DNA of 64,000 nucleotides from a virus, in IMG/VR virus record IMGVR_UViG_3300006931_000001, positions 53,395 to 117,394 of that record. One strand, 5' to 3'. The notes beneath the pieces were generated by a model, which made no database searches, had not been told where the DNA came from, and saw nothing but the letters and a program-made list of their open reading frames with translations. Positions 31,263 through 43,607 of the stretch are shown here, in pieces. The translations under genes were made by a program, and so were the position numbers. Position 1 is the stretch's first letter. The number at the start of each line of letters is the position of its first letter.

Positions 31263-31343
31263 GCGCGAATGGTGGAACGGTAGACACGGCAGACTTAAAA
31301 TCTGTTGCCTCACGGCGTACGAGTTCGAGTCTCGTTTCGCGCA
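31263..31343 (+). tRNA. tRNA-Leu (UAA)
   Basis: An 81-base gene folds as a class II tRNA. The acceptor arm pairs GCGCGAA with TTCGCGC and leaves discriminator A. The anticodon loop CTTAAAA gives anticodon TAA, reading TTA leucine codons. There is a long variable arm (TGCCTCACGGCGT) and a T-arm ACGAG-TTCGAGT-CTCGT. CCA is not encoded. TTA codons are common in this AT-leaning genome, which explains the phage-borne copy. Confidence 0.9.
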
Positions 31344-31350
31344 CGGTTTA

Positions 31351-31422
31351 GGATCTGTAGCTCAATGGTAGAGCGTGCGTCTCATAAACGCTTGGCCGCT
31401 GGTTCGATCCCAGCCAGATCCA
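31351..31422 (+). tRNA. tRNA with CAU anticodon (Met or Ile2)
   Basis: A 72-base gene with acceptor GGATCTG paired to CAGATCC, D-arm GCTC/GAGC, anticodon loop CTCATAA giving CAT, and T-arm GCTGG-TTCGATC-CCAGC. CCA is not encoded. CAU can be elongator Met or, when lysidine-modified, tRNA-Ile2 reading ATA. The two cannot be told apart from the anticodon alone. It begins seven bases after the Leu tRNA. Confidence 0.85.
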
Positions 31423-31442
31423 CGTAAATGTGAAAGGATATT

Positions 31443-34788: not shown

Positions 34789-37089
34789 ATGAAGATCACT
34801 GCATGCAAGCTTGGCAAATATTTTCTTGTTCATCAAACCATGTCTACCACTGAGGCATTGCCTTATTCAAATAAACGCGCTGTGAATCACGTTGTGGTAC
34901 TTGATTGTAGTGGGAGTATGACTTGTGATCTTCCAAAATTGCGAGAGAATCTCAAGGCTCGCTTGCCGCAACTCATCGGTGAAGATGATACGCTTTCTCT
35001 CGTGTGGTTCAGTGGACGTTCTGAATTTGGTGTTATTGTCGAAGCTTTGAAAGTCAGCACTCTGAAAGATTTGGCGTCTGTCAATAAGATTATTGACCGC
35101 TGGCTGCGACCGATCGGCATGACTGGATTTGTCGAGCCTATTGCAGAAGTTTCGAAATTGATCGAGCGTGTCAAAAAGAATAATACCAACGTATTTTCTT
35201 TGTTTTTCATGAGTGATGGTTGTGACAATCAATTTTCACAATCGCAAATTCTAAGCGAGTTGACCAAATTGGATGGTCAGTTAGCGAGCGCCACGTTTGT
35301 GGAATATGGCTACTATGCTGATCGTCAACTGCTGTCCAAAATGGCGGAAACGGTTGGCGGTACACATATCCATTCAGATAGTTTTGAATCATATGAACCT
35401 GTATTTACCAAGGCTCTGTCTCAGACAGGTCTTTCACCTGTCAAGCAAATTACTGTGGAATTACAAGCTCAACCTATTGGTGATTTTGTATTCTACATAC
35501 ATAATAATGAAGTAATCACACATAGTGCGAAAGAATCACGTGCCACGATTAACGATGGTACTCAAGACATATTTTATGTGTGTAGTGAGATCATGCATGC
35601 TGGCGTTGGTGTTAGTGATTCATCACTGTATGCAGCATTAGGTTTATATGCTGTACGCATGAAATCAGACGTAGTTATGGAAATTCTTCGATACACAGGA
35701 GATGTAAAATTCATTGATATGTTTGCCTCTTGTTTTGGCAAACAAAAATATAGTGAATTTGTCAAGGCAGTTTACGCTGCAGCATTTTCGCCTGATTGTC
35801 GATATACACAAGGTCAAGACTACAATCGTGTACCCGCAGATAATGCGACCACACTATTGGATGTTTTAGATATTTTGGTGAAGAGCGATGCTTATGTCTT
35901 GCTCGATCATCCTGCATTTCAGTATAATCGTATTTCACGTGGCACATTAAGTGCAGATGAGAATCTGTCAGCTGCAGAGCAAGACACTATCCGTGACATC
36001 CAAGCCAAGATGTCAACGGAAAAGAACGCAAAGAAACTGAAGGCATATCAGGCTCAAATTGACGATATTCTAAACACCAAAAAAGATGCCTTGGTATTTG
36101 AGCCAAAAGCAATGCCTGGCGGTTACAGCATTTCCAGCCTTACCTACAATGAAGAACGTCCCAATGTTTCTATTCTTGTGAGAAAGGCTGGTACTGTAAA
36201 TCTGTCATCTCGTGCTGATACTGCACCAACCGGCAGTCCTGCATTTATGAGTTTGATGAAATCAGAAGGTGCAGTAATTCACACCTTCATTTATCGTAAT
36301 TATGCCATCATCAAAGATGGTCTGGTCAACGTTGATAAATTGCCCGTGCGAGTAGATCAGACAACACAATTGATGCTTACGGCATCTGGCGTAAAGATGG
36401 AGCCACTGTTTTCAGAAAAAGCCGATGAGTGGTTACTGGATTTCAAAAATTTGCCAATTGTTAATCGCAAAATGGTCAAAGATGTATCTGCCGAGGAAAT
36501 GGCCAAACTGGAATTTAGTCTGATCAAGGCACAAGCTCGTGCCAAGGTGATAAAGCACATTAGGAACGAGCGTTATCCTGATGTGAAAATTGAAGGTTGG
36601 AAGAGTGTGTATGGTGACGAAGCCACACACTGGCTAGCAGAGCAAGGTCTGACAGAATACAAAGGATATTCGCCAAAGACAGTACAAGCACCGGCCAAGG
36701 ATGTGTACAGAGGCAAAGCTCTTGAAGTCAAGCTTGCCGGGTATTCTGCACTGCCACCTGTCGATAAAGTCAGAGAAATGCTTCGTGATAGTAAAGCACT
36801 CAACGGTCCAAGCACGTTGATGGCAGAAGCAATCAAAGATGTTGAAACTTGGCTGTTCAAAAATCCTGAAAAGCTTCACAAGAATTGGCTTACTGAATTG
36901 GAGAAAGTCGAAGTGTCCAACGTGCGTAGCCTACAATTTCAGGCTGCACTAATTCGTTTCAGCATTATTGTTGGTCAGACCTGGTTCCAAGAGTTTTCTT
37001 CGCTTGAAGAGAATACGTATTCTTGTGTATGCGATAAAACAAAAGTGAAAGCAACATTTGTGTTGAGTGAAGTAGATATTCCGATCTGA
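34789..37089 (+). CDS. Large VWA-domain protein
   Basis: A 766-residue protein. A VWA domain occupies about residues 30-215, with MIDAS motif DCSGSM (D39, S41, S43) and the later TGF and SDGCDN loops. About 550 residues without a recognised family follow. Repetitive low-complexity segments are absent. VWA proteins bind partners through the metal site, often together with AAA ATPases. This is the second VWA protein in the window, after the CobT-like one, and might share the CobS-like ATPase. It lies between the polymerase and SSB/RecA genes. Confidence 0.65.
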   Translation: MKITACKLGKYFLVHQTMSTTEALPYSNKRAVNHVVVLDCSGSMTCDLPKLRENLKARLPQLIGEDDTLSLVWFSGRSEFGVIVEALKVSTLKDLASVNKIIDRWLRPIGMTGFVEPIAEVSKLIERVKKNNTNVFSLFFMSDGCDNQFSQSQILSELTKLDGQLASATFVEYGYYADRQLLSKMAETVGGTHIHSDSFESYEPVFTKALSQTGLSPVKQITVELQAQPIGDFVFYIHNNEVITHSAKESRATINDGTQDIFYVCSEIMHAGVGVSDSSLYAALGLYAVRMKSDVVMEILRYTGDVKFIDMFASCFGKQKYSEFVKAVYAAAFSPDCRYTQGQDYNRVPADNATTLLDVLDILVKSDAYVLLDHPAFQYNRISRGTLSADENLSAAEQDTIRDIQAKMSTEKNAKKLKAYQAQIDDILNTKKDALVFEPKAMPGGYSISSLTYNEERPNVSILVRKAGTVNLSSRADTAPTGSPAFMSLMKSEGAVIHTFIYRNYAIIKDGLVNVDKLPVRVDQTTQLMLTASGVKMEPLFSEKADEWLLDFKNLPIVNRKMVKDVSAEEMAKLEFSLIKAQARAKVIKHIRNERYPDVKIEGWKSVYGDEATHWLAEQGLTEYKGYSPKTVQAPAKDVYRGKALEVKLAGYSALPPVDKVREMLRDSKALNGPSTLMAEAIKDVETWLFKNPEKLHKNWLTELEKVEVSNVRSLQFQAALIRFSIIVGQTWFQEFSSLEENTYSCVCDKTKVKATFVLSEVDIPI

Positions 37090-37801: not shown

Positions 37802-38830
37802 ATGAAGATAAACAAAGGCAGAAAAGTCAAACGTCATTCTGACAAGAGTGAAGATGACGATGATGACTTAGCAAACATGCGTGAGAAGTATCGGAAGTAT
37901 CAGGCACGTGAGGAGGGAGGTGGTGGAGATCGTGGTGATTTCGATGTCTTGAAAGAAGGCAGTAATAATCGACGATTTTTGCCTATTAAAGGCACAAGAG
38001 AATTCTATTTTGAAGCGCCTGTTCACTGGAGTGTTGGACCGACAGCTCAGAAGGTGCGATGTATTGGTGCTTTCAATGAGAAAGGCTATATTCTCCCTAC
38101 CACGAAATGTCCTGTTTGTCGACGGTTTTTGGTAGAGCAGCAGAAAGTTAATAAGAAGTATAAGAGAGGTACAGAGGAAGGTAAGAAAGCGTATTTCGAG
38201 GTCAAGAATGCTTACCATCCTAAAGTGCGTTATTTCAGTAACGTTCTGAATGAGGAAGGCGAAGTTAAGATCTTAGAGTACGGAGAACAGATTTTTGGTC
38301 AGTTGCTTAGTCACTGGTTCGAAGATGGCTCCAAGGTCGGTGATTTTACGGATATTCATGATGGCAGGTGGATGAATATCCGTAAGATTATCCCAAAAGG
38401 AAATACGAACAAGACTAACTATAAAGTCCAGCCTGATGATGAAACATCAGAAGTCGAAGATTGGAAAAAGATTCGTAAGCAGTTGCACGATCTCAACAAA
38501 GCAGCAGGTGAGCTGACAAAGCCAAAGGAGATCAAAGCCATGCTAGATGGTGATGACTTGGATGACGATGACAATGATGACGATGACAATGATGACGAAA
38601 GTGATGATACAAGCGAAGACGATGATGAGAGTGACGACGATGATGAGAGTGACGACGATGATGAGAGTGACGACGATGATAGCGATAGTGGTAGTAATGA
38701 TGATGACGACGATGATGAAGAAGACGACGATGATGAAGAAGACGACGATAATGATGATGATACTGATGATGACGATGAAGATGATGAGCCTGTGAAACGT
38801 AAGAAATCCAAAAAGCATCGTCGTCATTAA
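37802..38830 (+). CDS. ssb: Single-stranded DNA-binding protein, gp32-like
   Basis: A 342-residue protein. ATG 37802 follows AGGAAAAG. The central part (about residues 48-215) has features of phage gp32-type [13 protein letters not shown], a Cys pair CPVC (about 101-104), an aromatic-rich [13 protein letters not shown] and a binding segment around [13 protein letters not shown]. Residues about 255-330 are a very acidic Asp/Glu/Ser tail, the usual protein-interaction tail of SSB. Unusually, the final residues are basic ([11 protein letters not shown]). It would coat ssDNA and recruit RecA and polymerase; the next gene is RecA. Confidence 0.75.
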
Positions 38831-39834
38831 TGCGTAAGAAAAAAGCACCTAAAATTATATACAAAGATACTGGAATTTACGCACAAGACGATAATCATAT
38901 TGTGCGTATATCCAAAAAAGAACGAAAGAAAATTGAGGCCAATCTCGCAAAAGAAGTTGCGAGGCTTCACAAGAAATATGGCGCAGAGAGCATCGTACCC
39001 GTTGTAGGCAAGCGAGGCGTTAAGGTAGATACATTTTCTACTCTAATGCCAGAGCTCAATGATTTATTAACAGGAGAATCTGACGACGATAACAACACCA
39101 TTGCCGGCTCTGGTACCGGCATGCCTAAAGGTCGGATCATCGAAATCTACGGCCCAGAATCGTCAGGAAAAACAACGCTCACACTTCACCTTATTGCAGC
39201 TGCACAGCGACAAGGTGGAGTGTGCGCGTTTATTGACGCTGAACACGCGCTAGATACGGCATATGCGGCGAAGCTACACGTCAAGCTACGACGACTCTTG
39301 CTTAGCCAGCCTGATTCAGGTGAACAGGCTGGTGATATTCTGAAAGACATGGTCAAGAGCGGTGTCTACACCTTGATCGTCGTCGACTCTGTAGCGGCGC
39401 TCGTACCGCAAGCGGAGTTTCTCAGCAAGAAATCTGACGGTGAGCGACGCACAGGTGAGACAGTGATGGGTGGTCAGGCTCGGTTGATGAGTCAGCTACT
39501 TCGTAGATTGACACGCCTATGTGCCAAGAGTGGAACCACTGTAATATTCACCAATCAAATTCGTATGAAGATTGGTGTTATGTGGGGAAACCCTGAAACC
39601 ACTCCAGGTGGCAATGCGCTGAAATTCTATGCATCGATACGGCTCGATGTGCGAAAGGTCAAGACACTCAAAAAAGGCACAAGCGTCACAGGCCATCGTG
39701 CACGTATCAAGTGTGTAAAGAATAAAGTTGCGCCTCCATTTAGAGAACTTTACGGAGATATTAAGCCAAATCGCGGTATCGTGCAGCTCTACGCAGATCC
39801 ACATTTTGGCAAGAAAGGAGCCACTGATGATTGA
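38830..39834 (+). CDS. recA: RecA/UvsX-type recombinase
   Basis: A 334-residue RecA-fold protein. Walker A GPESSGKT lies at residues 108-115, then [13 protein letters not shown], a Walker [13 protein letters not shown] (about 177-188) and the L2-type region [13 protein letters not shown] (about 237-249). It has a longer charged N-terminal extension than bacterial RecA (about 70 residues before the core). It makes strand exchange during recombination-dependent replication and repair. The start ATG overlaps the SSB stop (taATG). Confidence 0.92.
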
Positions 39835-40201: not shown

Positions 40202-40413
40202 GTGAATTTAAACAATATAGACGTAGTCAAATTGCAGAATTACGTCCGTGGATGCCTGAAGATGATCTAAGTAATGTCGCAATCTCGGTACCTGATCGTA
40301 ATAACGGAAGTCCAAAACAAGGAGACATGATCGCACGAAATCCCAAAAATCACGAAGATCAATGGCTTGTATCAGCACAATATTTTGCTGATAATTTTGA
40401 ACCTCTTGTCTGA
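40198..40413 (+). CDS. Small hypothetical protein
   Basis: A 71-residue protein, ATGA-coupled to the preceding gene. Mixed charge, no membrane segment or metal motif. No family recognised. It directly precedes the RiPP-like precursor gene. Confidence 0.5.
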   Translation: MSEFKQYRRSQIAELRPWMPEDDLSNVAISVPDRNNGSPKQGDMIARNPKNHEDQWLVSAQYFADNFEPLV

Positions 40414-40439
40414 ATTCACACGTTACAAAGGAATAAATC

Positions 40440-40607
40440 ATGGAAAAGAAAAACAAGTCTGACAAGATTAGCATCCGTCGTGAGTCAATTCGTGAGCTGA
40501 ATCCCGTCACGGAACTACCGACCGTGAATGGTGGCGGTATGTGTAGCACTGCCGCACCGACAGGTATGTGCTGCACGCAAAGCAAGACGTGCACTAAAAC
40601 GCTCTGA
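40440..40607 (+). CDS. Lanthipeptide-like RiPP precursor peptide
   Basis: A 55-residue peptide after an AAAGGA ribosome site seven bases upstream. The N-terminal part looks like a class I lanthipeptide leader: KISIRRESIRELNPVTEL followed by a Gly-rich cleavage region (V-N-G-G-G, residues 29-33). The presumed core (34-55) has four Cys (35, 44, 45, 51), six Thr (37, 41, 46, 50, 52, 54) and two Ser (36, 48), exactly the residue set that LanB/LanC-type enzymes dehydrate and cyclise. No LanB, LanC, protease or transporter gene is visible here, so modification would need host enzymes or genes elsewhere in the phage. Alternative readings are a small Cys-rich metal peptide or toxin, but the leader-core division argues for a RiPP. 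Confidence 0.65.
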   Translation: MEKKNKSDKISIRRESIRELNPVTELPTVNGGGMCSTAAPTGMCCTQSKTCTKTL

Positions 40608-41525: not shown

Positions 41526-41531
41526 ATGACT

Positions 41532-41765
41532 ATGAAGAAAGATAAGAAGAGCAAGAAAGCTGACAAGGCGACAAAGAAGTCTAAGAAGGCCAAGCGCAAG
41601 ATGCCCAAGGGTGATGCACATCCTGCATCCAAGATCACGGACGCCAAGATCGAGAAGATGCGAGCGAAGTACGAGACAGGCAAGTATACACAGGCAGACC
41701 TGGCTAAGACCTTCGGTTTGTCTTTGCCGTATACTAATCGAATCCTCAAAGGACACGCACGGTAA
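41532..41765 (+). CDS. Lys-rich HTH protein
   Basis: A 77-residue protein; ATG 41532 is spaced properly from AAAGGA. The first 30 residues are Lys-rich and histone-tail-like. Residues about 35-75 fit a helix-turn-helix of Hin/resolvase style (EKMRAKYETGKYTQADLAKT, then LSLPYTNRILKG). It is probably a small DNA-binding regulator or nucleoid protein. Confidence 0.6.
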   Translation: MKKDKKSKKADKATKKSKKAKRKMPKGDAHPASKITDAKIEKMRAKYETGKYTQADLAKTFGLSLPYTNRILKGHAR

Positions 41766-42476: not shown

Positions 42477-43607
42477 ATGGATCGTATCAAAATGCATGTA
42501 GTCCTTGTATCGGATATTCATATCCATCCGTGGCAAGAGCATTCGTCTTTAAGACACGATGGTCCTAGCCGCTTACTGGATTGTGTTACTGTACTAGATG
42601 ACGTGCTTAGATACTGTCTAAATCATAGTATAGAGCACGTAATTGTAGGCGGTGATTTATTTCACAAGCGTGGAATTGTATACACGCAAGCTTACAATTT
42701 GATCGTGGAAAGATTAGCTGCGTTCAAGAAACATAGAATATCCGTGTATATGGTTGACGGAAACCACGATCATGCAAATAAGACAGGTACAGTGCACTGT
42801 GTGCAAGCCTTAATTGCAGCTAATTTGGTTTTTGGCATACCAGCATTTAGAGGCTACACGCTGTGGGACTTTAGAGAGCCTAAAGAAGCTGGTACTGAAC
42901 TCATCGTAAGTGCGTTGTCTTACTGCGATGATAAACATCAATTTGATAAACGACTAACACGTGTTTTGAATCAGTACGAGCATACTAGTAAAGGCTATCC
43001 TCATATTTTGGTGTGTCATCATGGATTCAAAAATGCACGTGTCGGTACAGCTCTTGAGTACCAAGTAAAAGAAGAAATTGATCCTGAAATACTCAGAGGC
43101 CATTTTGACCATATTTTCAGTGGTCACTATCATACGAGACAAAAAATTGGTGCATTAGATAACGCAATTTACATCGGCTCACCTTTGGAAAATACCAGAG
43201 GAGAAGGAGGAACACGTAAAGGATTTATTGACTACAACACGAAGACACATGATTGGAAATTAGTACCTATCAAGCGTCCGAAATTTATTGTGTTATCACA
43301 AGAAAGCATCAATGATAAAAATTATGACGACGTGGAAGGTAACTACGTTGATGTGGTTTACACTAAACTGAAAAATCCAGATGCATTTAGAGAACGACTG
43401 TTCAAACTCGGAGCGGCTGGTGTGAAGTTAGTACCACGAGCTCAAAAACGCGTGTCAGATGCGCCAGAAACGCGTTTGGATGTGAACCTCGGCATGGATG
43501 GCCGAACGCTCTTGAAGCGCTACCTGGCGCATTGTAAAGCATCTAAAACTCAACGTACGACATTACTTGAACTTGGTATTGAGCTCTTAGAAAAAGCACA
43601 ACAATGA
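42477..43607 (+). CDS. SbcD/Mre11-like nuclease subunit
   Basis: A 376-residue metallophosphoesterase. ATG 42477 is chosen since the previous gene ends at 42453; ATG 42492 is an alternative. Motifs in order: LVSDIHIH (about 10-17), GGDLFHKR (about 59-66), GNHDHA (about 96-101), VCHHG (about 180-184) and FSGHYHT (about 213-219). These provide the two-metal site. The C-terminal cap ends near 376. The partner SbcC-like ATPase is encoded at 45230. Together they trim or open DNA ends like T4 gp47/gp46, feeding RecA-mediated recombination. Confidence 0.85.
   Translation: MDRIKMHVVLVSDIHIHPWQEHSSLRHDGPSRLLDCVTVLDDVLRYCLNHSIEHVIVGGDLFHKRGIVYTQAYNLIVERLAAFKKHRISVYMVDGNHDHANKTGTVHCVQALIAANLVFGIPAFRGYTLWDFREPKEAGTELIVSALSYCDDKHQFDKRLTRVLNQYEHTSKGYPHILVCHHGFKNARVGTALEYQVKEEIDPEILRGHFDHIFSGHYHTRQKIGALDNAIYIGSPLENTRGEGGTRKGFIDYNTKTHDWKLVPIKRPKFIVLSQESINDKNYDDVEGNYVDVVYTKLKNPDAFRERLFKLGAAGVKLVPRAQKRVSDAPETRLDVNLGMDGRTLLKRYLAHCKASKTQRTTLLELGIELLEKAQQ

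Follow-up and report, generated by a model that had tools for sequence, protein, structure and literature searches.

The window analyzed here is the rightmost 64 kb of an IMG/VR virus record of 117,394 bases (IMGVR_UViG_3300006931_000001; contig G000). At 40440-40607 it holds a small gene for a peptide that resembles the precursor of a ribosomally synthesized and post-translationally modified peptide (RiPP). The open reading frame (ORF) is preceded on the same strand by two small genes and by one that is RecA/UvsX-like. The translation is MEKKNKSDKISIRRESIRELNPVTELPTVNGGGMCSTAAPTGMCCTQSKTCTKTL, 55 residues long (P0001), and its homologue in a second phage is called P0002. The features of the gene, with the basis for each in brackets, are as follows.

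40428..40432, plus strand: AAGGA ribosome-binding site, 7 nt before the ATG (sequence)
40440..40607, plus strand: gene for a precursor-like peptide of 55 amino acids (ORF translation; homologue in the second phage)
40440..40538, plus strand: predicted leader M1-G33, ending in GGG (weak NF038153 match, residues 1-22)
40467..40499, plus strand: leader motif I10-x-I12-x-R14-x5-L20, a conservative form of LxLxKx5L (sequence; motif from PMC7268733)
40530..40595, plus strand: block of 22 codons, GGGMCSTAAPTGMCCTQSKTCT, identical as protein in the homologue (alignment)
40539..40604, plus strand: predicted core M34-L55 with 4 Cys and 8 Ser/Thr (sequence)

The peptide is as the preliminary description had it: RRESIREL occupies residues 13-20, GGG residues 31-33, and the 22-residue tail after GGG carries four Cys (35, 44, 45, and 51) and eight Ser/Thr (36, 37, 41, 46, 48, 50, 52, and 54). 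The core sequence is GGGMCSTAAPTGMCC. Within it, T41xxC44 and S48xxC51 have a spacing that could suit ring formation.

Relatives of the peptide were found in two further contigs, G001 and G002, when 2.9 million viral contigs were scanned, and looser core patterns returned only the same two. These contigs overlap by 40.4 kb at 99.99% identity and are, therefore, pieces of one phage. Its GC content is 68% compared to 43% for the window contig, and about 50 genes are common to both phages at a mean amino-acid identity of 47%. The two thus belong, as distant relatives, to a single myovirus-like lineage whose capsid protein is of the SPO1 type.

The two peptides were compared along their length. 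From GGG through T52, 22 of 22 residues are identical, including all the core Ser/Thr and Cys, while no identical run in the 49 other aligned gene pairs is longer than 19 residues, the length of the longest one. The DNA of this block differs at 9 of 66 nucleotides, each a third-position change that is synonymous in the sense frame. Together with the homologue and the ribosome-binding site, these silent differences show that the ORF is a real gene and more than a chance ORF. The leader, in contrast, is the same at only 6 of 29 aligned positions (core versus leader, Fisher p 2.5e-9), and two of the final three positions of the peptide also differ between the phages. Invariance sets in exactly at GGG, the predicted cleavage site, so the peptide shows a trait of RiPP precursors, a leader and a core that evolve at different rates with the cleavage site between them. 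Since leader DNA identity (47.6%) does not exceed that at core third positions (59%), the leader has diverged at least as far as freely evolving sites, suggesting from this one sequence pair that it was either replaced or driven to change.

The resemblance of the leader to RiPP leaders was examined with NCBIfam, where P0001 and P0002 matched RiPP leader models only. NF038153 (lant_leader_L1a) was matched by both (E 0.048 and 0.045; 13.8 and 13.9 bits; curated cut-off 22 bits). TIGR04149, a model of glycine-glycine (GG) leaders of RiPPs modified by radical S-adenosylmethionine (radical-SAM) enzymes, was matched by P0002 over residues 5-35 (E 3.3e-5, 23.7 bits; cut-off 25 bits) and was not matched by P0001. 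When the leaders of both peptides were shuffled with GGG and core left intact, 0 of 60 shuffles matched either model. The core alone had no NCBIfam match and neither did the antisense ORFs. The peptide was without a match in PHROGs and Pfam, and a PDB search gave chance matches only. Class I lanthipeptide precursors (LanA) have leaders with FxLD or, in Bacteroidetes, LxLxKx5L leaders that end in GG and are cleaved by C39 proteases (PMC7268733). P0001 is a conservative match to the latter motif (IxIxRx5L...GGG), and P0002 has a weaker form, TxLxSx5L...GGG, at the same positions. With the strict pattern [IL]x[IL]x[KR]x5[IL]...GG and a Cys-rich tail, P0001 stood alone among 5970 ORFs of 35-80 amino acids in 19 related phage contigs.

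The evidence for a GG-leader RiPP precursor is good, but the evidence for a lanthipeptide rather than a radical-SAM product is not. The preliminary description had called the gene a class I lanthipeptide-like precursor without its enzymes. The architecture behind this held up, namely leader-model matches that are lost on shuffling, the GG motif, a core invariant from GGG, and the lack of enzymes. The class I label was not established, since no curated cut-off was reached and P0002 scores better against TIGR04149. Two observations are also in its favor: the leader resembles RiPP leaders, and Ser/Thr are conserved along with Cys.

No LanC was found in G000, G001, or G002. Pfam scans covered nearly all predicted G000 genes of at least 75 amino acids, leaving out two very long genes and one that crosses a fragment boundary, and 73 genes of the second phage, a large part of G001/G002. 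Lant_dehydr, LanC, and C39 families were absent from these scans, and no radical-SAM/SPASM maturase was among the families found, which in both phages were for replication, recombination, nucleotide, and structural functions only. The absence of LanB and LanC noted earlier for the window, therefore, extends to the 117-kb contig, which may itself be incomplete.

The position of the gene was compared between phages, using two flanking genes.

38830..39834, plus strand: RecA/UvsX-like recombinase gene, left edge of a variable slot (Pfam RecA 8.9e-96; phrog_97 1e-69)
42492..43607, plus strand: metallophosphoesterase gene, right edge of the slot, product putatively SbcD-like (Pfam Metallophos 6.9e-10, a match to one window protein of the set; synteny)

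These two genes stay close to each other, without the peptide gene between them, in G002, G004, and G007. The second phage has the peptide gene at another site, on the strand opposite to its near neighbors and beside genes with few relatives. Another 16 contigs, many of them short, have a related capsid gene but lack the peptide gene. At core residues that have a codon choice, 11 of 20 codons are identical compared to 24% at conserved residues genome-wide (p 0.003). Core codon identity above the genome level at non-syntenic sites, therefore, argues for lateral movement and for selection on the core. As read from the codons, the core moved between the phages after their backbones had split and has apparently undergone only silent changes since. 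We thus read it as an accessory ('moron') gene of the phage, inserted on its own.

We lean toward the view that the gene encodes an orphan RiPP-type precursor that is processed by host enzymes and whose core is the active part. Its observed elements are a GG-type leader, the GGG junction, a core rich in Cys and Ser/Thr, no recognizable enzyme in the contig, mobility, and a fixed core with a divergent leader. Upon infection, the leader would dock to a leader-binding host enzyme, either of the radical-SAM kind or a dehydratase of the LanB type. The core would then be cross-linked via its cysteines, and a host GG-protease of the C39 type would free a peptide of about 22 residues. Variation of the leader would fit each phage to its own host's enzymes. 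A fixed core with a free leader suggests that activity lies in the mature peptide, whose structure or target would be demanding and whose maker would be any host enzyme able to read the leader. The G000 phage has virulent-type replication genes and no integrase was seen. Because a short lytic cycle would make an intracellular effect, or one against co-infecting phages, more useful than a slow secreted antibiotic, the peptide probably acts inside the infected cell on a conserved process of the host or of a rival phage. More tentatively, phages may hijack host RiPP factories with the precursor alone. Each precursor would join a leader suited to its host to a single universal core, perhaps by recombination at the GG junction, and an identical modified peptide would then be produced in very different hosts.

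Several points weigh against host processing of an orphan precursor. Every leader match is below its curated cut-off, and only two distinct peptide sequences are known. The contigs are fragments or unclosed, and enzymes could sit in the missing parts. No bacterial homologue was found in a scan of GTDB species with two short patterns, nor in 379 and 395 genomes from the phyla of two metagenome-assembled genomes (MAGs) with a related capsid gene, where two matches were due to chance. Also, host assignment (below) led to no organism in which a candidate modifying enzyme could be named.

Another explanation, which we consider unlikely but which accounts for part of the data, is that the gene encodes a small Cys-rich phage protein that is not modified. 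The C-x8-CC-x5-C of its core would bind a metal or form disulfides, and an N-terminus that is flexible and rich in Lys, joined to a glycine linker, would have come to look like a RiPP leader by convergence. The sub-threshold leader scores, the lack of a nearby enzyme, and the lack of a bacterial homologue are all as expected for such a protein, and 2 of 60 core-keeping shuffles weakly matched a metallochaperone model. However, residue order in the leader matters, since shuffled leaders lose the RiPP matches. Invariance in the core is no weaker at the other residues, all Ser/Thr among them, than at Cys, it starts exactly at GGG, and the natural core alone matches nothing.

An improbable alternative is that the peptide is a decoy, a dummy precursor that floods the RiPP enzymes, protease, or exporter of the host and so stops a host peptide such as an anti-phage lanthipeptide. 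Substrate features without enzymes would fit this, and a motive exists, since intracellular lanthipeptides of Streptomyces have been reported to block phage late genes (reviewed in PMC12360287). Those peptides resemble our case in linking lanthipeptides to phage infection, but they are bacterial products directed against the phage, whereas here the phage carries the precursor. The decoy function proposed in the preliminary description loses ground, since in a leader decoy one expects the leader to be conserved and the core to be free, and the opposite is seen. In a variant of this idea, the core may be a mechanism-based inhibitor.

It is also doubtful, to a similar degree, that the phage brings a modifying enzyme of its own, whether one of an unrecognized family or one encoded in sequence that the contig lacks. 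The records are linear and unclosed, and many phage proteins are without a family, so there is room for such an enzyme. Yet RiPP genes are usually clustered, there is no recognizable enzyme beside the peptide in either phage, and nearly all genes of the 117-kb contig above the size limit were scanned. A spurious ORF or antisense artefact is highly improbable, because although an antisense ORF (40208-40594) overlaps the gene and the nine nucleotide differences, which make 7-8 residue changes in four of the other frames, make only 2 in one antisense frame, the sense frame has none, the peptides are of similar length (55 and 54 amino acids) with ribosome sites in both phages, and the antisense ORFs (128 versus 58 amino acids) match nothing.

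Among known systems, Bacteroidetes-type class I LanA (NF038153) is like our peptide in its leader motif (of which the peptide has a conservative form), its GG junction, and a short core in which Ser/Thr precede Cys. The peptide differs from it in its low score, in the lack of LanB, LanC, and C39 genes, in being phage-borne, and in its fixed core with a variable leader. TIGR04149 precursors are similar through P0002, but the window peptide does not match them and no radical-SAM gene was found. Both phages use Shine-Dalgarno sites, which, along with the 68% GC of the second phage, is unlike typical Bacteroidota phages. Sublancin is carried in the SPbeta prophage. Prophage-borne bacteriocin gene clusters also appear in a citation within PMC7616364 (Dragos et al. 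2021). In these cases, too, a phage carries a precursor of the RiPP type, but as part of whole clusters in temperate prophages in contrast to the lone precursor here. A literature search outside most subscription journals found reports of whole RiPP clusters in prophages and none of a lone precursor carried by a phage. Phage carriage of RiPP genes as whole prophage clusters is already known. If our reading is true, a precursor that comes alone, its core fixed and its leader exchangeable, would be a new phage use of host secondary metabolism and a direct tie between peptide natural products and infection. The core would, in addition, be a ready-made, evolution-tested sequence, and its target would have to be conserved across very different hosts.

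Host assignment was attempted through relatives of the capsid protein (Myxococcales, Desulfobacterales, and an archaeal MAG), but these were only 36-45% identical and not usable, as were the nearest cultured phages, which have 2-9 genes in common with G000 or G002. In the phylum of the Myxococcales MAG, NF038153 had no match in 284 genomes, LanB was rare (3 of 189), and the LanB loci held no comparable precursor. Other candidate matches to the peptide were rejected. The phage match MT836203 was due to chance, with stops in the frame and a contig that is bacterial ATP-synthase DNA. The pattern matches L007, L009-L012, and L014-L017 were other proteins, and the matches G009, L091, and L103 were spurious or stop-containing frames. 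Plasmid matches (E 0.5-8) were disregarded, the Edwardsiella one being antisense to a gene. The major capsid protein of G000, encoded outside the window (L020:681-2084), is 34-38% identical to those of SPO1-like phages of Bacillota. Its closer relatives (55-60%) are environmental contigs only, mostly of 56-70% GC, suggesting an uncultured lineage.

Other genes of the window were also noted. The gene at 37802-38830 encodes a phage single-strand DNA-binding protein (phrog_1192). Its acidic tail of Asp, Glu, and Ser is very long, about 90 residues, and is encoded by simple GAT/GAC-type repeats. The gene at 34789-37089 and its neighbors, taken as a group, gave matches to a CobS-like AAA ATPase and to a von Willebrand-type (CobT-like) protein. 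Two proteins of a set spanning 20463-63559 (A4) weakly match the DS8 anti-phage model (best E 0.0017). Two tRNA genes, Leu-TAA and Met-CAT, are found at 31263-31423 and could hint at host codon use. The product of 41526-41765 is a small Lys-rich protein that weakly matches a repressor/helix-turn-helix family (phrog_4583, E 2e-4), and a small Lys-rich protein near ThyX in the second phage (G002_018) looks like it.
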